Assembly: GCA_016180285.1 (NCBI GenBank)
Contig: JACPBO010000005.1
Span: forward strand, 1 to 46,671
Origin: Candidatus Woesearchaeota archaeon
GTDB taxonomy: Archaea > Nanobdellota > Nanobdellia > Woesearchaeales > JACPBO01
DNA: 46,671 nt
Direction: 5' to 3'
Under the pieces are notes generated by a model, which worked only from the letters and a program-made list of their open reading frames with translations, did not search any database and had not been told where the DNA came from. Below, in pieces: positions 9,373 through 19,859 of this stretch (positions are counted from its first letter, which is position 1; every line of letters begins with the position of its first letter). The position numbers were made by a program, and so were the translations under genes.

Positions 9373-9938
9373 GATTCGAGAGAGCCGAACATTTTAACAA
9401 GATCTTCGGTAGAATAAATGATTACTTTCATTTGTTTTTCTTTTAACATTTTATCTTTGCTTCAAATAGGGCATTTTAATTTTAAAGCCAAAGCAAAATA
9501 ATCTGCATCTTGTCAAAAACCACCCATCATAGATGGGTGGCATGTAGTTACGTTCCATCGCATCAGGTGGAGGTGGTTTTTGAGCATGCTCAGAATTTTC
9601 CACATACAAAAAAGGTTGGCTTTCTGCCACCAGTCAAAGACTGGATGGAAAATTCTGACATTTTTATCTGGGCTGATCTTTTCGGCTTCAGTGATATATT
9701 TTGCTGTTTCCTCATTCGGAACTGTCTTTATTTTCTTTTTCAGTATATCCATCAATTCATCGAAATCTTCATTTGTTCTCTCAGTTTTCTCAGATATTGC
9801 TTCTTTATACTTATCGAATTCTTCAAATATGAACTCAGGTGCAAAAAGATGCAAATCTTCTTCAAATATAATCTCTTCTGTTTTTCCTTTCTTAATCAAA
9901 ACAGAAAATAAGATGTTTGCATCAATTACTAAATCCAT
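9369..9938 (-). pseudogene. PIN-domain (VapC-like) toxin gene interrupted by palindromic element and a stop
   Basis: The ATG at 9938 follows the antitoxin stop by one base. The first 92 codons encode a typical PIN start (MDLVIDANILFSVL with the first catalytic Asp, then PEFIFEEFDKY with the conserved Glu) ending in SPDK. At 9660 the frame runs into a 150-bp palindromic element (9511-9660), which ends translation at 9513. Beyond the element the rest of the PIN domain is present from 9510 to 9369: DADYFALALKLKCPI, a TGA, then SKDKMLKEK and IIYSTEDLV. Removing 9511-9660 joins the halves in frame as SPDKKDADYF, including the third catalytic acid. The TGA stands where VapC proteins usually have Trp (CPIW), one base change from TGG. 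The restored protein would be 139 aa, a normal VapC length. As it stands the toxin is inactive. Confidence 0.85.
9511..9660 (-). repeat. Double-hairpin palindromic element, copy 1 (150 bp)
   Basis: Plus-strand structure: TGTC end; long stem TCAAAAACCACC / GGTGGTTTTTGA enclosing an apical hairpin (CCCATC-ATA-GATGGG); central GCATGC; second long stem TCAGAATTTTCC / GGAAAATTCTGA enclosing an apical hairpin (CCAGTC-AAA-GACTGG); GACA end. A 22-base core at 9574-9595 recurs exactly at 35464-35485 and with one change at 42007-42028. It is inserted in the PIN gene without a visible target duplication. Its orientation relative to the host gene is the same as in the other two copies. No transposase is present in the window. 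Confidence 0.9.
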
Positions 9939-9939
9939 C

Positions 9940-10164
9940 TTAGTTGGGGTGCCTTCTCTTTGCAAGATTTCTATTAAGTTCCCCGCCCCATTTCAGGGCA
10001 TCTTCTTCTGTAATTGTGCTTTTTGCTTTAAACTTTTTAATAAACTCCAAATCATTGATTTTTTCATCAAAGGCCTCTCTGGCAACAGCACTCCAGTTTA
10101 TTTCTGCAAATAAGTCCATTTTCTGCTTCAATTCCAGCGGCACCGATAATGTTACATTTACCAT
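9940..10164 (-). CDS. VapB-like ribbon-helix-helix antitoxin, 74 aa
   Basis: Small DNA-binding antitoxin. The N-terminus VNVTLSVPLELKQKMDLFAEINWSAVAREAF fits a ribbon-helix-helix fold: a beta strand followed by two helices. The Trp-Ser-Ala-Val-Ala-Arg helix is typical of archaeal VapB-type antitoxins paired with PIN toxins. The acidic/basic C-terminal tail (about residues 40-74) would wrap the toxin. A Shine-Dalgarno GGAGGG at 10171-10176 lies just before the ATG, and an AT-rich TATA region is at about 10216-10224. The toxin start follows the stop by one base, so the two were an operon; with the toxin broken this is now an orphan antitoxin that may still regulate itself. Confidence 0.85.
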   Translation of the reverse strand: MVNVTLSVPLELKQKMDLFAEINWSAVAREAFDEKINDLEFIKKFKAKSTITEEDALKWGGELNRNLAKRRHPN

Positions 10165-10245: not shown

Positions 10246-12474
10246 TTAAGAAAACTTCGGCTCAATAGCTGATCTGTATGTCTTTGAATATTCTTCTATC
10301 TTGCCCAATACCTCCATTTCATCAACACATGGCGGCTTTGGAACTGTTATGATGTACATTTCAAGGTTTTCCTTGTTGTAGAGATTCCATGATCCAATAT
10401 ACCAGCTGCCTGTGTTATTGTTGATGTACAATCCCCCTAATGGAGCAGGCGTTACATTGATATCCCTGTCTGGCACATATTCATCAACTATCCAACAATG
10501 CCAGCCTTCACAGATGTGCTTGCAGTCTTTAGGTATGATAAAACCTTTTTTGTCAAGATATGTTGCTGTAACTTCATATTTTCCCGGAACAAGCCTTATC
10601 TGCTGCGTGTCTGTTGTAACTGTTGCATTGCTGTAATCAACTATCACAACTTGTTGTAATTCCTGGTCAAAGACATCCTGCTTTACCTTGTTTATATTCA
10701 GGATCAGAAGCTCATCTGAGCTGAGCGATTGAGCCTGGCCGATTCCAGTTGCATCTATGAGCTTTTTCTTGACTTCTACATTGAAGGATTTGAATTCATC
10801 CATTTCAACTGTTATGTTGGCCCCTTTATTCGGGAGGGTTGTCAGTAAAACTGCTTTCGGTATAAAGCCATCTTTCTCCAACAATAAGTAGCCGCCATCA
10901 CATACTGGTAATTTTCTTGCCCAAGAGGATTTATTCGTTGTCAGATTGCGCTGCGTTGAATCAAACGGGCATGCTGAATAAGTTCCGCAGCCAAATGTTA
11001 TAGAAACGCCTTCTAATGTCTTGTACGATGAACTGTTATAAGCAATTATTTTTACCTCGCCGCTTATTCTTTGATTTTCATTGCAAAACAATGTTCTCGT
11101 CACGTTACGTGCTGTTACAGTGCGCGTTGTATTTGTGCTTTGGTCAAATACTTCATAAGTTGAGCTTTTATCTGCTTTTATGCCATATTCAACCAGATTA
11201 TAATCGTAAATTCCAATTGTGCCCTTGCCAAGATGCCATTCCAATAAATCCTTGTTGTCCCTTAAATTGCCTTCCAATGCAAACATAAACCTGTATCCTT
11301 TGTTTCTTAGAGCATTTTTGTCAAATATCGTGACAACAACGGGATAGGAAATGTCATAGAAAAATTCATAAGTATTTGTCTGCGTTGTGCCTGTAATTGG
11401 AAAGCTTTGCTTGTCCACTACGGGCTTTAATGGCTGCGGATTAATGTCAAAATAATAGTTCCAGTTTAAATATGAATAATCAACGCTGATGTTCGGGTAT
11501 TTTTGTTTGAATGCATCGAGCAAGAGCGCATTGTAAAGGCCCTGTTCGCCAGGGCTCGTTATCAATGTTGCATTTGCTGTCCCGTTCACCCTGATCAGGT
11601 TTGCATATGGCAAAACATACTGCTGGATTTTATTTTTTACCGAGCTGAAATCCCAAGTTATTGTGTAGGATTTATCATCTCTCCAAAATATTGGAGGCAG
11701 CTTGTTGAAGTCAGCTCCCGAATACGAGCTTATTAAAATCTTTAAAATATTTTCAAGGCTCTGGTTATTCGCCTCATTTATTGCCAGAGAAGCTGCAATT
11801 GTAAATATCTTTCTGAGGTCAATATCCATTTTAGTCTGGAACTGCTTTACCTGCCTTGTTATGTTGTCTTTTGCAATCTCCATCGGATACTCCACATAAA
11901 CAACAAGATTGTCTCTTGCTATTGTTGTCTCTGTTTTCATGCTTTTTAAATTAAAGCTAAAGCCTTGTTTTTTGAAGACATCGAAATCCTGCAGGCAGGA
12001 GTTTAAATTCCTGTTGATGTAGTTGCTCAACTGCAAAGCTACATTATCCAGAGAAGGCGCAAGTGACGAAACAGTGCAGTTAACGCATTTATTATCAGTT
12101 GCCAAATACCACCAGTATGGAACCGGGTTTAGGGAATTGGGTGACAAGCTGACAGCATCTGAGCTTGTTGGATCAGACATCGACTTATCCAAGTCAAGAG
12201 CTACGCCGCTTAAAGTTGAATCAGATGGGTCAATATAGCCGCCATGCTGCCCCAGCTTGGTTAATGCTTCTGCTGCGGTCTTGTCAATGCATGCTTCAAC
12301 ATATTCTTTTATTGGCTGCATCTCAACAGGGACTTTTTCAATTACCCTCTCAGCCTGAACTTGAGATGGGGCTTTAGCCTGCGTGGATATGATATAGATT
12401 AAAACTCCTGCTGCAATAACTAATATGAGCCCGACTATTATAAATGCTGTGATCTGGGCTTTTTTGTTCAGCAT
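10246..12474 (-). CDS. Large surface protein with pilin-like N-terminus, 742 aa
   Basis: Exported protein of unknown function. The N-terminus MLNKKAQITAFIIVGLILVI looks like a class III (type IV pilin-like) signal: a short basic leader, a small residue, Gln, then a 20-residue hydrophobic helix that would stay in the membrane or join a filament. The remaining about 710 residues are outside, with many Asn-X-Ser/Thr sites and scattered Cys (for example KCVNCTV, and FGCGTYSACPF), ending in beta-rich segments with PEGA-like 'GYLLLEKDGFIPK'. An in-frame ATG further upstream is rejected because it lies inside the preceding gene. The start at 12474 overlaps the upstream stop (ATGCTGA), so translation is coupled. 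It is the last gene of the surface operon. Confidence 0.85.
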   Translation of the reverse strand: MLNKKAQITAFIIVGLILVIAAGVLIYIISTQAKAPSQVQAERVIEKVPVEMQPIKEYVEACIDKTAAEALTKLGQHGGYIDPSDSTLSGVALDLDKSMSDPTSSDAVSLSPNSLNPVPYWWYLATDNKCVNCTVSSLAPSLDNVALQLSNYINRNLNSCLQDFDVFKKQGFSFNLKSMKTETTIARDNLVVYVEYPMEIAKDNITRQVKQFQTKMDIDLRKIFTIAASLAINEANNQSLENILKILISSYSGADFNKLPPIFWRDDKSYTITWDFSSVKNKIQQYVLPYANLIRVNGTANATLITSPGEQGLYNALLLDAFKQKYPNISVDYSYLNWNYYFDINPQPLKPVVDKQSFPITGTTQTNTYEFFYDISYPVVVTIFDKNALRNKGYRFMFALEGNLRDNKDLLEWHLGKGTIGIYDYNLVEYGIKADKSSTYEVFDQSTNTTRTVTARNVTRTLFCNENQRISGEVKIIAYNSSSYKTLEGVSITFGCGTYSACPFDSTQRNLTTNKSSWARKLPVCDGGYLLLEKDGFIPKAVLLTTLPNKGANITVEMDEFKSFNVEVKKKLIDATGIGQAQSLSSDELLILNINKVKQDVFDQELQQVVIVDYSNATVTTDTQQIRLVPGKYEVTATYLDKKGFIIPKDCKHICEGWHCWIVDEYVPDRDINVTPAPLGGLYINNNTGSWYIGSWNLYNKENLEMYIITVPKPPCVDEMEVLGKIEEYSKTYRSAIEPKFS

Positions 12475-13277
12475 TTTAATGCCGCCTTTCTTGCGATTAG
12501 TGAAAAGTATATTCTGCTCCATGAGAGATAAAACAGGATGATTAAAATTGCAATAATGATCAGGAAATTCCATCTGCTGGTTGAATATAAAAAGCTGAAA
12601 AGATTCAATAAAATTATGGGGAGGATAATTATAATTGCTAAAGGCAAAAGGAAATAATAAAATTTTGAAATGCCAATCTTAACAGCTTCTTTCATCATTC
12701 CAAATATCTTTTTATCTTTGCTGAAAATTGAATGAAGTATTGCTGTGAAATACAAGAATAAAAGAAGTTCAATGATAATCAAATACGCTGAAATCATGAT
12801 CTTGAATATGAATGCTGTAATAATGATCAGAACCAGCCAAAGCAGATGCCAGATTAAGTCTAATGATAAAAATTTTATAAAAAATGCCCTGTTTAGTTTT
12901 TGCTTTAATATCTTGCTCCACTGAATAGATTTGAATGCTGAAACTGCAAGCACAAGAATTATGAAAAATAAAAACGATGTTGCCAGCGCCTTAAAAAATA
13001 ACTTTACAATAAATTGTATATTAAACAGATCTAAGTCTGTGAAGGAAACGTCCTTGTTCATGCCTGAAGCATAAGAAAGGATTTTTTCAAGCGTAGGGTT
13101 TATGATGCCTGATAAAGAGAGCTCATTGCTTAAAACAACAGAGAGGAGCTTCAAAAGCAAAAGTATGACTATGATCAGGGCTATATCGATCAGAATGTTA
13201 TAGAATAATGTTTTTGGATTTTTAAAGCTCTCTGCAAAAACAGTCTTCTCAAATCTCTTTTTTAATTTTTTTAGCAT
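12468..13277 (-). CDS. Polytopic membrane protein, 269 aa
   Basis: Membrane protein with about six to seven hydrophobic segments (residues about 27-50, 88-115, 135-160, 160-180, 208-232, 237-262) and a basic cytoplasmic N-terminus (MLKKLKKRFEKTVF). A loop of about 35 residues between the first two segments could be outside. I recognise no family. Its position inside the operon of exported proteins, directly before the pilin-like gene with a 7-base overlap, suggests a role in anchoring or assembling those proteins, somewhat as a membrane platform would; that is inference from context only. Confidence 0.8.
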   Translation of the reverse strand: MLKKLKKRFEKTVFAESFKNPKTLFYNILIDIALIIVILLLLKLLSVVLSNELSLSGIINPTLEKILSYASGMNKDVSFTDLDLFNIQFIVKLFFKALATSFLFFIILVLAVSAFKSIQWSKILKQKLNRAFFIKFLSLDLIWHLLWLVLIIITAFIFKIMISAYLIIIELLLFLYFTAILHSIFSKDKKIFGMMKEAVKIGISKFYYFLLPLAIIIILPIILLNLFSFLYSTSRWNFLIIIAILIILFYLSWSRIYFSLIARKAALKC

Positions 13278-13292
13278 TTTTCCTCATATTCG

Positions 13293-13916
13293 TTATCTTC
13301 TTTGTCTATGCATTAATTTATATATTAAAAATATGGCAATAATTATTCCTAAAATAATCAATGCAACAAGGTACCAATTAAACTTTTTCTTTTCTAACTC
13401 TGGTTTTAAAACGTCCTTACAGTCTTGTGGGCAGCTTTCATAGCGCTCATGCGCCTGGCATGTTCCATCGCCGCAAACCTTGGCGAAATAGCCAACATCA
13501 ATTGAAAGCTCCCTTTCATTTTTTGGATTATATATATTGACGACTTTGCCATTGGTTGCATATTTCATTCTTACAATAAAATCAACAATTTCGCGCGTGA
13601 TTGTGCCGCTTATAATTTCGCTGGTATTCAAGTCCACTTCATCACTTACAATTTCCAGCGGAATCTCAAACCGAATTACAGATAATGGTTTGCCTTCAAA
13701 AGAAAGAAGTTCTGCCTTATAGCCGATTCCGGGCTCGATTGCACTGAATCCGCCTGGCCTTACAGAAACGCCATTAAGCGAGAGTTTCCCCTTGTCGTAA
13801 TGCAACTTCAGCTCATAGTATCTATCGCTTGCACTCGCAGGCAATGCAAGAACTATGCCAAGCTGTAATAAGACAAGCATTAGAAAAATCATCAATGCCT
13901 TTGTTTTAGTTTCCAT
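13293..13916 (-). CDS. Secreted type I membrane protein, 207 aa
   Basis: Has an N-terminal signal peptide (hydrophobic about residues 8-25, possible cleavage after ALPASA), a beta-rich outside domain of about 110 residues, a Cys cluster CGDGTCQAHERYESCPQDC at about 146-164, and a C-terminal transmembrane helix (about 180-200) followed by the basic tail MHRQRR. The 'CGDGxC...E....CPxDC' motif is common in archaeal and bacterial secreted proteins and probably forms a disulfide- or metal-stabilised knot next to the membrane. It sits 15 bases before the membrane protein gene and 11 bases after the M64 peptidase gene in the same operon. Function unknown. Confidence 0.83.
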   Translation of the reverse strand: METKTKALMIFLMLVLLQLGIVLALPASASDRYYELKLHYDKGKLSLNGVSVRPGGFSAIEPGIGYKAELLSFEGKPLSVIRFEIPLEIVSDEVDLNTSEIISGTITREIVDFIVRMKYATNGKVVNIYNPKNERELSIDVGYFAKVCGDGTCQAHERYESCPQDCKDVLKPELEKKKFNWYLVALIILGIIIAIFLIYKLMHRQRR

Positions 13917-13927
13917 TTTTTCACCTT

Positions 13928-16423
13928 TTATTGCACTCTCACTACACCAATTTCAGCCAATTTCTTTATTTTCTCCTCATCCGTTCCTGAATAATAGAAG
14001 TGTATATAAGTCTGGGATTTTAGAATATATAATTCACCCCTATATGAGACGCCAGATTCATAGTTTACTCTAAGAGAATTATCACCATATTCATCTCTGC
14101 CCATTATATACTTTGAATTCCAGCGGGATACCTCGTATTCATAGCCGTCCTTTGCCAACTCCCCATGTCTCACATCGATGCTAACCTCTGGAGTAAAAGT
14201 ATAGTAATAGTAAATCTCCTGGTCATTCATTGTCGTTATCCCGCCTGCTTGACCCGCATTTGTTGTTATATCAAAACCGACTTCGGACAAATCTTCTAAT
14301 TCGAAGAGATAGGTCTGCTCGATTGGAAGACAACCGCTATAGCGTAGAGAATTATCAACATTCCATCCTGCACAATCAACTGAGGCATATTCTTCCTGGC
14401 TTGAGGGATAGCAGCACTTAAATATTTTGTTCATGTGATTGATTGAAACAACATTAAATTCATTAGCAGTATATTCGCTGTTCATTAGGCTGTTCTCTGA
14501 AGACCTATAATCCTCGTAAATAGTGCACCCCTTATAGCAGCCTGCTCCTGCTATGCAATTGGCGCCTGCACCATCGCACCACTTGGGGCAGCCTGCAATA
14601 TCGCAGTTCGGGCGATCTTTGGCAGATGCTCTTCCCTCTTCGCTATATTCATCAGCCAAGCCGCCAAATGAATGCCCAAATTCATGGGTTGTAGTTTTTG
14701 GGCCATCTGCTTGCGATATTGCTAACCCGCTATACTGTGCCCAGGATCTATGAGGATAATTTGTCAGAACTATAATTTGGTCATAAAACGGGCACAGAGA
14801 AGCTAATTCAAATGCGTCATTCTCACAGTCCGCATTCCCAAAATCATAGCAAGATGTATCATAGGCTTTATCCACATAGTAAATATTGAACTTTTGTCTA
14901 TTCTGGCTAAAAGGCTCATAGAAAAGAATTGTTTCCGAGTTAGATGGTACATCCGTTGATGCAAAGGTCAAAAGTTGCTCTTCCGAATAGCCATTCGCTA
15001 GAAAAACAACATCTATCTTGCTTTCATGGTCGCCATTTTCAACTACTGTTTTGCAGAGACTGGCGGCTAGAACATTAACGCTGGCTGCATTATCCGCCTC
15101 TGCATTGTTGCTTGCCTTGTCCTGCGCAGTTATATCAATATAATATTGTACCTCTGCTGCGCCTGTTGAGTCCCAAATATTTCCATATATGCCATCATTA
15201 GCTGTACCCTCTCCATGAGTTCCATCATCGTAGAGGCTGACAGTAGCGATATTTGTTTCATCTGGGTTTTGAATATAAGCATTTACTAAACTAACCCCTG
15301 ATGAATCAGCCACTTTAGCTGTTATTGTAAATATCGTACCAGCCAATCCTGAAGCAGAACTTATTTGTATGTCTGTAATTGCTGGTGGCTCAGTATCAGC
15401 TCCAACACAACTTTCATCATTTTGACAAGTTTGGCCAGATGGACATACGCAAATAGAGCATTTATTAGCCAGATTTCCATTATTGCAAAATAAAGGCTTT
15501 GTCACAGAACACTGATTATATGAAGTCCCATCTGTGCAGGTTTGAGTAGGACTTATGCAGCTTTCGTCTGCTTGACAGCTCTGACCAGAAGGACAACTGC
15601 AGCTTGAGCATTTGTTGATTAAATTTCCATTTTCACAATATGTTGGTTGTGTAGATGAACATTGAGAATATGAAGTACCATCTGAACATGTTAATGTTGG
15701 AGTTGCATTTATGCAAGCGCCGTTAGAGCAGCCATTTGAACAATTATAATCAGACCATGTAGCGACATTGCCTTCACAAACTGCTTCTCTTAGCCAGCCA
15801 TCATTAAGCCCTCCGATAATACATCCATCGTTTATTGTATTCACCCCGCCGGTGTAATCAACTCCTGTAGCATTCCCAAACGTATAATAATTCTTTCCAC
15901 CATCAGAATCTGTGCATATTTGTGGAGTGATTGGAGGTTGTGTTGATATAATTGAAACGTTTATTATCTGCATTAGTGAATCTGGAGATTCAATATAGCC
16001 AAGCTGGATAACATCATAACTAATATTTGAATAAAATGCATTAAAACCTGATGCACCTGTTAGCGGAGATGCACTTGCTGTTTGCGTTATGTTATTTTTA
16101 TCTCCTGTTAGTGTGTTTTTAAGCCACACAGAAAATTCCACATTGTTCGTCATTGGCTGGATGTAGTAAGAAACTTCATATAAAGTCGTGTTGTCAGGAA
16201 ATGCTGTTTTTTCCGCCTGCAATGCTACTGTCAGCTGCGACAAGTAAATTTCTGATGTTGCTGAGCCTGTCTGAGCCTCAGCTGTTCCGCCCCATTTGGA
16301 GCATGTTTCAACCTCCCAGCCCTCAACAGCATACCAGTTTGGAATCTCGTAAGTGGAGAATGTCATGGGCATTGCAATTAATAAAAGAATCACGGCCAAT
16401 GCTGCAAGGATTGTTTTTTTCAT
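13928..16423 (-). CDS. Secreted M64-family metallopeptidase with Cys-rich repeats
   Basis: Exported zinc peptidase, 831 aa. Order: signal peptide (residues 1-23); an N-terminal domain of about 210 residues; two near-identical Cys-rich repeats of about 46 residues, each 'CxDGTSYxQC ... CPSGQxCQxDESC'; an Ig-like/'anchor' domain (ITDIQISSASGLAG ... YYIDITAQDKASNNA, about 345-450); then the peptidase. The zinc site is HEFGHSFGGLADEY starting at His 580, the HExGHxxxGLxDEY signature of peptidase family M64, whose founder cleaves IgA. A Cys-rich stretch follows (CDIAGCPKWCDGAGANC) and a C-terminal beta domain. It probably acts at the cell surface on other proteins, perhaps those of its own operon or of a host; the target is unknown. 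Confidence 0.9.
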   Translation of the reverse strand: MKKTILAALAVILLLIAMPMTFSTYEIPNWYAVEGWEVETCSKWGGTAEAQTGSATSEIYLSQLTVALQAEKTAFPDNTTLYEVSYYIQPMTNNVEFSVWLKNTLTGDKNNITQTASASPLTGASGFNAFYSNISYDVIQLGYIESPDSLMQIINVSIISTQPPITPQICTDSDGGKNYYTFGNATGVDYTGGVNTINDGCIIGGLNDGWLREAVCEGNVATWSDYNCSNGCSNGACINATPTLTCSDGTSYSQCSSTQPTYCENGNLINKCSSCSCPSGQSCQADESCISPTQTCTDGTSYNQCSVTKPLFCNNGNLANKCSICVCPSGQTCQNDESCVGADTEPPAITDIQISSASGLAGTIFTITAKVADSSGVSLVNAYIQNPDETNIATVSLYDDGTHGEGTANDGIYGNIWDSTGAAEVQYYIDITAQDKASNNAEADNAASVNVLAASLCKTVVENGDHESKIDVVFLANGYSEEQLLTFASTDVPSNSETILFYEPFSQNRQKFNIYYVDKAYDTSCYDFGNADCENDAFELASLCPFYDQIIVLTNYPHRSWAQYSGLAISQADGPKTTTHEFGHSFGGLADEYSEEGRASAKDRPNCDIAGCPKWCDGAGANCIAGAGCYKGCTIYEDYRSSENSLMNSEYTANEFNVVSINHMNKIFKCCYPSSQEEYASVDCAGWNVDNSLRYSGCLPIEQTYLFELEDLSEVGFDITTNAGQAGGITTMNDQEIYYYYTFTPEVSIDVRHGELAKDGYEYEVSRWNSKYIMGRDEYGDNSLRVNYESGVSYRGELYILKSQTYIHFYYSGTDEEKIKKLAEIGVVRVQ

Positions 16424-16460
16424 TTTCTTTTTTGTTTTTTATTTTGGTTGATGCTTATTA

Positions 16461-19400
16461 TTAACTGCTGCAATAATCCGTCCCTCCAAGGTCTGGATTA
16501 TAGTCATTGAAATTGAAAGGCGAGTCCGATATATCCTCCCAGTCTAATATTGCCAAGGCAACGCCGCTTATGCCACACAATACACTATCAGCATCAGTTG
16601 GTACTACAGGATTGCATTTGAACTCAATCCCACGGCACGCTAGGAAATGCGCAATGCCTAAAATCATGTATGGCAGATTGTTCCATATCAAATCCAGCAA
16701 GTTCTTGAAAAATTCTCCTGCAATTCCATGCAGTTTGTATGACGCGCTTTCAACATACAAACATTCTCTTTCTGAATACGCCAATTCGCAGTTTGTTGTT
16801 GGCAATCCTTGCGCAGCAGCATCCTCAATGCAGCTTCTGTACATGCACTTGATCTGCCTGTCTTTCTTAAGATTGTAGACATAGCCTGGCATGCACAAGC
16901 AAGCCTGAGCATAATGAATGCTTTTGTATGGATCGAAAAGCCATTGGTCTGTTTCAATAGGGTAGTCGATTCTAGCACTATCGCCTGCTTCCCCCCATGC
17001 CTTCAATTTCTCTGTTGTACTACTCGCAACTCCTCTGCCTGTTATTTTTGATATATCGGCTACAGCCGCCATTGCATTAGAAGTATCCTGCTGTAATACT
17101 TTTGCATCATTATTAGGCATATTTAAGCTCGCTTCACCACCCGCACTACTAGTCACGCTAATAGGTTTATCGAAGTCAAATTTAAGGTCACCATAAGGAC
17201 CCTTTTCCAACAAGTCAGACACCGCTTTATACTGTTCAGTGTCCTCATAACTTAAGTCGGTCGTCTTATCACGTACAGCTCCCAATGCTGCTTGTAATCC
17301 GATATTCGACCATGTGCCGAAGTCGCACAATTTGCAAGTGTAGAGCATTCCTATTATTTTGAATGTCATGGCAAAAGGGTTAACAAAACTAAAGCCAGTT
17401 GGCCATATGACTTGTATGAACCCATGATAAACACTAATGGGTGTGCAGACGGCCATCCAAACTTTGGCGAGGGACACCAAACACGGTCCACACCATTCAA
17501 GAGCCCACCAAAGAGCAGCCAAAATCCCCCACACAATTGATTTAATCGCCTGCAATAACTGATCAATTCTCTGCAGCATTCCTGCAATGCCATATATGAT
17601 CCCGAGCCACTTAGTCCATGTCTCCCATTTGCTGATGTCTTTTTCCAGATCGCTGATTTCACTGTTGATGCTGTCAACCTTATCCTGCACGCTCTCATCA
17701 ACTGTTCCAAGCGCATTATTATACAAGGGGATCGAAACTGAAAAGCTTTCAACTTCAGGCTGTGCATAGATCAGATTGCCGTTCCTCATGTTAAGATTCA
17801 GTTTGCAGTCTATGCTTATTGGAGAATCAACATCGCTCAGATCGCCTGAGATCTTAAACACAACATAAGGCTCTGTGGAGAACTCATTCATTACATAAGG
17901 AGCTGCGCCAAGATAGTCAGAAGTGCAGTTTCCAGCATCCACGTCCATTGAAATGATCTCGGCATTCTGCTGCAATGTTAATGTAACAGGAACAAATACA
18001 GTTGCATAAGTCTGCGAAACAATTCTTCTGTCTATGCCAACAGATGGAATTAAAGCTCCAACAGAAGAGCTGACTAATTCAGGAGGAGAAGTTGTATCTG
18101 TAAGCTGGCATATTGTAACATGTGCAGCTGCTGAAGCATCATTGCCGGCAAAATCTTTTGCATAAACATTTACAGTTGTTTCAATTGCAGTTGAGTACAG
18201 GCTTTGAATGATTGCAGAGCAGTTCCATGTGCTGCTGCTTATATTAACGCAGCTTCCAATTACATCGCCTAATGAGCTTATTGGAGAGGCATTGACTGTA
18301 AAAGAAGGCGCAATGCCTGAATTATCCGAAACAGCTGCATAAAATGCAAGCGCATCATTGCTTGTTGCGCAGATTCCGGATGAGCTTATATTGTAAACAT
18401 TTGAAATAACAGGAGCAGTTTTATCAATCTTTACTTTGCCATAGGTTATGCCCTCTGCGCTAGTTCCGGTATTGTCTTTTATGCTGTCAACCCAGAGCTT
18501 CTTCTCCGCTGAATCATCAGCAGCTGAAAAATCAATATCATCCCATGCGCAAGTATACGTTGAAGAGGATGATGAGCAGTTTGTTGCAGCAACAGAAGTC
18601 GCTCCGCCAATATCCTGGAAATTCAGCTTTACATTTTCTTTTTCCAGGCCAGAGCCGCTTTCTGTTATTGTTGCTTTAACTGTTTCTTTGTGCAGGCCAG
18701 ATGCATAACTTATATTGCCATAACTGTGATTAGTCCCAATATAAGTAACTTGAGGAGATGAAGTGTCTGCTGAAAAAGAATAAGCCAATGCTGCGCTTCC
18801 GTTGTTGCCGCTATTGTCATCAGCATAAAAATTTATTGAAACTCCAGATGTTGCATTTATATTTATGCTCTTCCATGTGCAATAATTAATTCCAGAAGAT
18901 AAAGCGCAGCCTCCGCCTGTTGTTGCAGCTGCATAAACAATTGATGCATAGCTTGGATTAAGCTGTGAAAAGCCTGCTCTTACACTATTGGCATTTAATC
19001 CAGTTCCACTGTCAGTTATCTGCACTGAAACATCTGCTGTTATGCCATTTTTGCCGACATAAGTTACAGCTTTTCCATTGCTTAGTATCTGCAAAGAGCT
19101 TATTGCAGGAGCAGAGCTGTCAACTATAAATCCATCGCAAATGAGAGAAGATGCCTGGCCAATATTGTCATAAGCAACAACACATGCCTGAGTTGATCCA
19201 TTGCCATAATTAAACAAGGATGCTGATCTTGAGATTGCTGCTCCATTGCTGCACTCTTTCGTGTTAATTGGGATTGTTTCAATAAGATTTGCTGCATCAT
19301 ACTTGTACAGCTTTATCTCCTTTATCCCGGAGCATTTTCCTGTGCAGCTTGAATCTGCGCATGCTGTATCGGCAGCAGAATAAGTTATGCTGATGTTTGA

Positions 19401-19859
19401 ATTTGCATTTGTTCCGTTCTGCAGGACATCAACAGCTGCTGTTGGCGCAATATTGTCAATAGTTATTGTTGTTGCAGCAGTTATAACTTCGGTTCCAGTG
19501 TCATTATATAAATGAATTGTATAGCTGTAGCTTTTGGCATCTACTGTAAAACTCGTAGATCGATAAGAGCAGTTGAAAGAAGCCCCCATGTTTCTGCAGC
19601 TGCTGAAAACATCGCCAACTCCGAATGTAACCTGAGATGGGACTATGGAGCTGTCGCCGTCAATCTGCGCATCAACATCAACATTTGTCGAGTCTGTTGC
19701 TTTCCTATAGCCCTGAACTCCATTGCTGCCGTAAATTGAATTTACAGCTATTCCGGTTGCAAATACATTTGCGGTGTAGAACGGAAGGGTGAGAATAAGG
19801 AAGATCAGAAGGCTTGCTATGAAAACTATGTAGTTTTTGACATATTTTTTGTTAATCAT
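16461..19859 (-). CDS. Giant surface protein with Ig-like domains and membrane region, 1132 aa
   Basis: N-terminal signal or anchor (residues about 10-34), then about 560 residues of repeated Ig-like beta domains ('...APVISNVYNISSSG...', '...APAISSLQILSNGK...', each with paired Cys). From about residue 690 a coiled stretch (VDSINSEISDLEKDISKWETW) leads into several hydrophobic segments with Cys pairs (WCGPCLVS, CKLCDFG). The C-terminal third has a Cys-rich block (CLCMPGYVYNLKKDRQIKC ... CIEDAAAQGLPTTNC) and another hydrophobic segment. The layout suggests a membrane-embedded base carrying an outside stalk. Its ATG overlaps the stop of the AbrB-like frame by ATGA, so it is the first structural gene of the operon. 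The function is not known; adhesion or partner contact is a guess. Confidence 0.83.
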   Translation of the reverse strand: MINKKYVKNYIVFIASLLIFLILTLPFYTANVFATGIAVNSIYGSNGVQGYRKATDSTNVDVDAQIDGDSSIVPSQVTFGVGDVFSSCRNMGASFNCSYRSTSFTVDAKSYSYTIHLYNDTGTEVITAATTITIDNIAPTAAVDVLQNGTNANSNISITYSAADTACADSSCTGKCSGIKEIKLYKYDAANLIETIPINTKECSNGAAISRSASLFNYGNGSTQACVVAYDNIGQASSLICDGFIVDSSAPAISSLQILSNGKAVTYVGKNGITADVSVQITDSGTGLNANSVRAGFSQLNPSYASIVYAAATTGGGCALSSGINYCTWKSININATSGVSINFYADDNSGNNGSAALAYSFSADTSSPQVTYIGTNHSYGNISYASGLHKETVKATITESGSGLEKENVKLNFQDIGGATSVAATNCSSSSSTYTCAWDDIDFSAADDSAEKKLWVDSIKDNTGTSAEGITYGKVKIDKTAPVISNVYNISSSGICATSNDALAFYAAVSDNSGIAPSFTVNASPISSLGDVIGSCVNISSSTWNCSAIIQSLYSTAIETTVNVYAKDFAGNDASAAAHVTICQLTDTTSPPELVSSSVGALIPSVGIDRRIVSQTYATVFVPVTLTLQQNAEIISMDVDAGNCTSDYLGAAPYVMNEFSTEPYVVFKISGDLSDVDSPISIDCKLNLNMRNGNLIYAQPEVESFSVSIPLYNNALGTVDESVQDKVDSINSEISDLEKDISKWETWTKWLGIIYGIAGMLQRIDQLLQAIKSIVWGILAALWWALEWCGPCLVSLAKVWMAVCTPISVYHGFIQVIWPTGFSFVNPFAMTFKIIGMLYTCKLCDFGTWSNIGLQAALGAVRDKTTDLSYEDTEQYKAVSDLLEKGPYGDLKFDFDKPISVTSSAGGEASLNMPNNDAKVLQQDTSNAMAAVADISKITGRGVASSTTEKLKAWGEAGDSARIDYPIETDQWLFDPYKSIHYAQACLCMPGYVYNLKKDRQIKCMYRSCIEDAAAQGLPTTNCELAYSERECLYVESASYKLHGIAGEFFKNLLDLIWNNLPYMILGIAHFLACRGIEFKCNPVVPTDADSVLCGISGVALAILDWEDISDSPFNFNDYNPDLGGTDYCSS

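Follow-up and report, generated by a model that had tools for sequence, protein, structure and literature searches.

A conserved archaeal surface-protein gene cluster with a pilin-like subunit, joined in one Woesearchaeota genome by a fused M64 peptidase

Archaeal type IV pili and archaella are built with a motor ATPase, a platform protein, an A24 prepilin peptidase and class III pilins. The glutamate at position 5 (Glu5) is often absent from true archaeal pilins, and the Sulfolobus bindosome depends on an assembly system of its own, Bas (PMC4471445). Here we describe a surface-protein locus in a draft genome of a Woesearchaeota archaeon (1.33 Mb, 51 contigs). The window, meaning the whole stretch of 46,671 nucleotides that was analysed (G000:C5:1-46671), carries five open reading frames in a run on the minus strand, and our listing recovered all five at the positions given by a first-pass annotation. 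We refer to the genes and their parts as follows.

16461..19859, minus strand: IG, a giant secreted protein of 1132 aa (open reading frame; matches in 46/60 relatives)
13928..16423, minus strand: SM::M64 fusion protein of 831 aa (N-terminus matches free SM, remainder matches relatives' M64 proteins)
15929..16423, minus strand: SM part of the fusion (aa 1-165), a signal peptide and a small domain (matches free SM proteins)
15389..15928, minus strand: linker between SM and M64 (aa 166-345), made up of a TDSDGG segment and Cys-rich repeats (similar segments in M64 proteins of genome G001)
13931..15388, minus strand: M64 metallopeptidase part with a choice-of-anchor X segment at aa 395-420 (matches to PF09471, NF041940 and PDB entries)
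14645..14686, minus strand: zinc-binding motif HEFGHSFGGLADEY, aa 580-593 (PDB comparison)
13293..13916, minus strand: CK, 207 aa with a signal peptide, partner of M64 (open reading frame)
13419-13475, minus strand: CGDGTCQAHERYESCPQDC motif of CK
about 13314-13370, minus strand: single C-terminal span of CK
12468..13277, minus strand: POLY, a membrane protein of 269 aa with six predicted spans (open reading frame; matches in relatives)
10246..12474, minus strand: PIL, a large pilin-like protein of 742 aa (open reading frame, class III signal, predicted fold)
12373..12474, minus strand: N-terminal part of PIL with the class III signal peptide, cleavage predicted after A6, and the hydrophobic helix (56/56 sequences share Q and T)
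10789..11076, minus strand: transthyretin/CnaB-like domain of PIL, aa 467-562 (predicted fold matches)

The gaps between IG and the M64 protein, M64 and CK, and CK and POLY are 37, 11 and 15 nt, and the PIL start codon (ATG 12474) overlaps the POLY stop by 7 nt. This ATG yields MLNKKAQITAFIIVG and the 742-aa protein; a 775-aa open reading frame is its upstream extension. Such tight spacing of the five genes is as expected of one putative transcription unit. Just downstream of the operon, at window positions 9513-10164 on the minus strand, a PIN_2-domain open reading frame and a small upstream open reading frame resemble a toxin-antitoxin pair.

The first-pass annotation had proposed that all five proteins form one apparatus. 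When we read the neighbourhoods of relatives, we found that the order IG-SM-POLY-PIL is conserved in Woesearchaeota (G001, G005, G008, G024, G037 and G014), recurs in many families and is present with an additional PIL in front at L149 and L159. M64 and CK form a separate two-gene module in relatives and are not part of this core. The proposal thus holds for IG, SM, POLY and PIL, and we rejected a single five-part apparatus for M64 and CK. PIL has matches in 56 of 60 genomes, IG in 46, M64 in 34, and POLY and CK in 19 each (own genome included throughout), and nearly all named relatives that we found are Woesearchaeota or Nanoarchaeota. At 80 loci fetched by the PIL motif, IG is the same-strand neighbour of 67 of the 76 full-length PIL genes; four of the nine PIL genes that have no IG neighbour also have no next gene on the contig. 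We also read 20 loci that belong to other orders of the class. In 17 of them the gene directly after PIL encodes a giant secreted protein of 1200-2660 aa, and a six-span gene often comes after that. The matches to the IG base are weak at class level (12-30 bits), so the class-wide claim rests on gene order. IG, POLY and PIL match no Pfam family, a Pfam scan of five large slot proteins also returned no family, and a literature search found no description of the cluster.

The same genome has a second cluster on another contig (G000:C3), in which PIL and IG are followed by a slot protein, POLY and a third PIL. Four small genes lie inside this second cluster (L064:7951-10964), some of them resembling nucleotidyltransferase or AbiE-type genes by eye, and genes of similar sizes occupy the corresponding position in G001. 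In G005, a PIL-IG pair has next to it an 802-aa protein (L071:5610-8018) that looks surface-layer-like, as judged from its N-terminus only.

The M64 assignment of the first-pass annotation was borne out: the protein matches PF09471 (E 9e-9; 35.3 bits against a curated cut-off of 26), its M64 part matches PDB entries 3p1v (E 8.6e-10) and 4df9 (E 2.6e-9), and its zinc motif HEFGHSFGGLADEY is identical. We therefore place it in family M64 as a putative peptidase. What the annotation had overlooked is that this protein begins, over some 165 residues, with a member of a separate family, SM, which in relatives is a free-standing gene of about 165-260 aa that matches just this N-terminal portion. The SM proteins of three genomes (L066:10547-11119, L068:921-1514 and L073:10511-11110) have a Gly/Ser-rich tail with a W-T/D-D-W end; the fusion in the window is without this tail. 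For CK, described earlier as a single-span Cys-knot protein, we see one C-terminal span, and in place of a demonstrable knot only the CGDGxC...CPxDC motif. M64 and CK are adjacent at 10/10 loci (window included), with the CK relative always the next gene after M64. The M64 proteins of L087, L090, L091 and L100 begin with class III-like signals (KAQLT, RAQAS, KGQIN and KAQVT), unlike the M64 protein of the window.

In G001, which belongs to the same genus, the order is IG-SM-POLY-PIL and SM is followed directly by POLY; M64 and CK of that genome lie together on another contig. Identity between the window and G001 is 80-89% for IG, POLY and PIL, 59% for SM, 39% for M64 and 34% for CK. The M64 of G001 is thus no closer to that of the window than is the M64 of G010, a genome from another family, at 45%. 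The simplest history is that an M64-CK cassette recently entered the core operon and was joined in frame to SM. That G001 has lost the pair is less likely, since M64-CK occupies this place in none of the other relatives that we read. The base composition of the insert is unremarkable. The fusion was seen in one draft assembly of 51 contigs and no second sequence carries it, which would fit an assembly error; the SM-M64 junction is in frame, however, with gaps of only 11 and 15 nt at M64-CK and CK-POLY, and a search of the genome at E 1e-3 gave no further match to M64 or TDSDGG, hence no obvious repeat to cause a false join. We consider such an error very improbable.

An operon dedicated to host contact, with the M64 protease acting on a partner cell, would suit a DPANN lineage such as Woesearchaeota, and here M64 has an export signal through SM. 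Likely surface proteins also vary most among related symbionts (PMC6142677). However, this genome has no known host, the core operons that we read in relatives contain no M64, and the core is near-universal and not specific to any lifestyle known here, so that we judge a dedicated device of this kind distinctly unlikely. Host contact via the complex is in itself possible.

PIL has a class III signal (MLNKKA/QITAFIIVG), in that a positively charged leader ending in G/A (or S) precedes the hydrophobic stretch, and its predicted structure has one N-terminal helix (aa 4-34), an alpha/beta region and then beta domains. The motif [KR][GAS]Q is present in 42/42 PIL proteins found without using the motif, followed in nearly all by V/I/L and then T/S. 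In an alignment of 56 sequences that was partly motif-selected, [KR][KR][GAS]Q is present in 56/56, Q+1 and T+3 never vary, and F or Y stands at +5, never an acidic residue (Glu5 in 0/56). The KKAQ motif is conserved more than an ordinary anchor would require. Since Glu5 is often missing from archaeal pilins, its absence in PIL does not exclude filaments. The PIL model, built from the 56 sequences, has a mean pLDDT of 87 and a pTM of 0.59, and the predicted fold of residues 467-562 resembles 5aq0_B (Z 11.5, 1.7 A over 81 residues) and CnaB 8bdw_A (Z 9.9, 2.4 A over 88 residues). All structure matches are taken up by this beta domain, so the N-terminal half, which has no Foldseek or VIA match, was barely probed for a type IV pilin fold, and we make no claim of a new fold for it. 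A Pfam scan of the 56 PIL proteins found no family. A match of the PIL profile to PDB 9wyu (E 2e-4; 'Anti-Parallel Protein 10', apparently a designed protein by name and composition) was treated as chance, and a viral origin was dismissed, there being no PIL relative in IMG/VR.

In IG, a Sec-type N-terminal helix is followed by about seven Ig-like domains (aa 36-710) and a helical, Cys-rich base (aa 720-1132) that contains invariant cysteines. The AF2 model (pLDDT 77, pTM 0.36) shows tandem Ig-like domains and then a low-confidence helical region, and a structure search with it returned tandem Ig/FN3 matches with Z up to 11.2, in agreement with the Ig-like stalk described before. The membrane base attributed to this protein was not upheld: no segment exceeds the transmembrane threshold (maximum 1.55, threshold 1.6), and the region is instead predicted to be helical and Cys-rich, with low model confidence.

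The cluster could also be a general cell-envelope anchor, for example one holding a surface layer, and neither an appendage nor an adhesin. Consistent with such an anchor, the predicted fold of one PIL domain is similar to that of SlaB from the Sulfolobus S layer (8qox_B, Z 10.2, 2.0 A over 85 residues), the cluster is near-universal, with PIL in 108/119 genomes sampled across the phylum, and it often lies beside a methionyl-tRNA-synthetase-like gene (N-termini read by eye). Against it, the SlaB match is to one common beta domain and is tied with pilin and carboxypeptidase domains, and the size range of the giant partner, from about 1000 to more than 2600 aa, would suit adhesins as well. We regard a purely anchoring role as unlikely. 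Near-universality is at least as compatible with a general role in the envelope as with host attachment.

A search for a prepilin peptidase, suggested at the outset as a check on the pilin-like signal, found an A24 enzyme in the same genome (G000:C11:38308-38622) and in 116/119 genomes overall. The platform protein T2SSF was detected in 84/119; because platform and motor were sought with Pfam models, diverged genes could be missed in this count. Among the 35 genomes that lack a detectable platform, 34 have PIL and 34 have A24. In the 60-genome set, 11 genomes have no credible T2SSF match and also no strong T2SSE match (best 5e-18, mostly in proteins of ~760 aa, against 1e-29 or better in nearly all other genomes), and yet matches to both A24 and PIL were obtained in every one of the 11, with one weak match among them. 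The occurrence of PIL and of the peptidase thus does not follow that of the pilus motor, a pattern that falls short of proving motor independence. These counts bear on the alternative that PIL belongs to ordinary type IV pili, as a large minor pilin or a tip subunit, in which case IG would be the tip adhesin and the motor would be encoded elsewhere in the genome. PIL does carry a class III signal, T2SSE and T2SSF homologues are present in the same genome (G000:C4), and in archaea the genes for the motor often lie apart from the pilin sets (PMC4858521). However, the retention of PIL in nearly all platform-less genomes speaks against ordinary pili, as do the size of PIL-family proteins (mostly 600-880 aa), the residue at +5 and the lack of any recognised motor gene among the Pfam-scanned neighbours of the cluster. 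We consider the minor-pilin explanation unlikely.

Taken together, these data slightly favour a reading in which the core IG-SM-POLY-PIL forms one membrane-anchored surface complex, probably not a type IV pilus filament, that has recently received an M64 insertion in this genome. That the four proteins form one complex is suggested by gene order. PIL would enter the membrane via its class III signal and be cut after K-K-A by the A24 peptidase, as the observed motif and enzyme suggest, and would stay anchored by its N-terminal helix with the beta domains outside. IG would be a seven-domain stalk with its Cys-rich helical base at the membrane near PIL and POLY; the domains are predicted and the contacts are suggested by the operon. 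SM would be a small exported component of the complex. The M64-CK cassette would have been inserted between SM and POLY, and the in-frame SM::M64 join, which is seen in the sequence, may deliver an active peptidase to the complex. Its most likely role is that of an anchored stalk in the cell envelope, serving surface structure or adhesion, to which the protease would contribute by processing surface or neighbour proteins locally. Against this reading, SM is just 59% identical to that of G001, and platform and motor are possibly too diverged for Pfam models. More tentatively, and with less confidence than we place in the complex itself, a motor-free, prepilin-peptidase-dependent surface machine of PIL, a giant stalk and a six-span protein may be ancestral to Nanoarchaeota, with a small exported slot that accepts enzyme cassettes such as M64-CK. 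The cluster is carried by most genomes of a large, mostly uncultivated archaeal group, although IG, POLY and PIL belong to no Pfam family, and it offers a concrete starting point for studying how the surface of these cells is made and used. Assembly of the complex without a pilus motor, if it occurs, would explain why the prepilin peptidase is kept in platform-less genomes.

Compared with described systems, PIL is like the subunits of archaeal type IV pili and archaella in its class III signal (K/R, then G/A/S, then Q) and in the presence of an A24 peptidase in the genome; in contrast to those systems, PIL subunits are very large and never acidic at +5, the cluster has no recognised motor or platform, and PIL is kept in genomes that have no detectable platform. 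The class III sugar-binding proteins of the Sulfolobus bindosome are non-pilin surface proteins with class III signals, as PIL probably is; however, we recognised no Bas genes in the present case and detected no solute-binding domain. The window M64 shares its zinc motif and domain match with described M64 peptidases (PF09471; PDB 3p1v and 4df9), but differs from them in being fused to an archaeal surface component, in its Cys-rich repeats and in the single-span partner gene that always adjoins it. PIL residues 467-562 have a predicted fold like that of CnaB/transthyretin-like domains, as in Gram-positive pilins, although we found no sequence relation between the two, and in PIL this is one domain among several.
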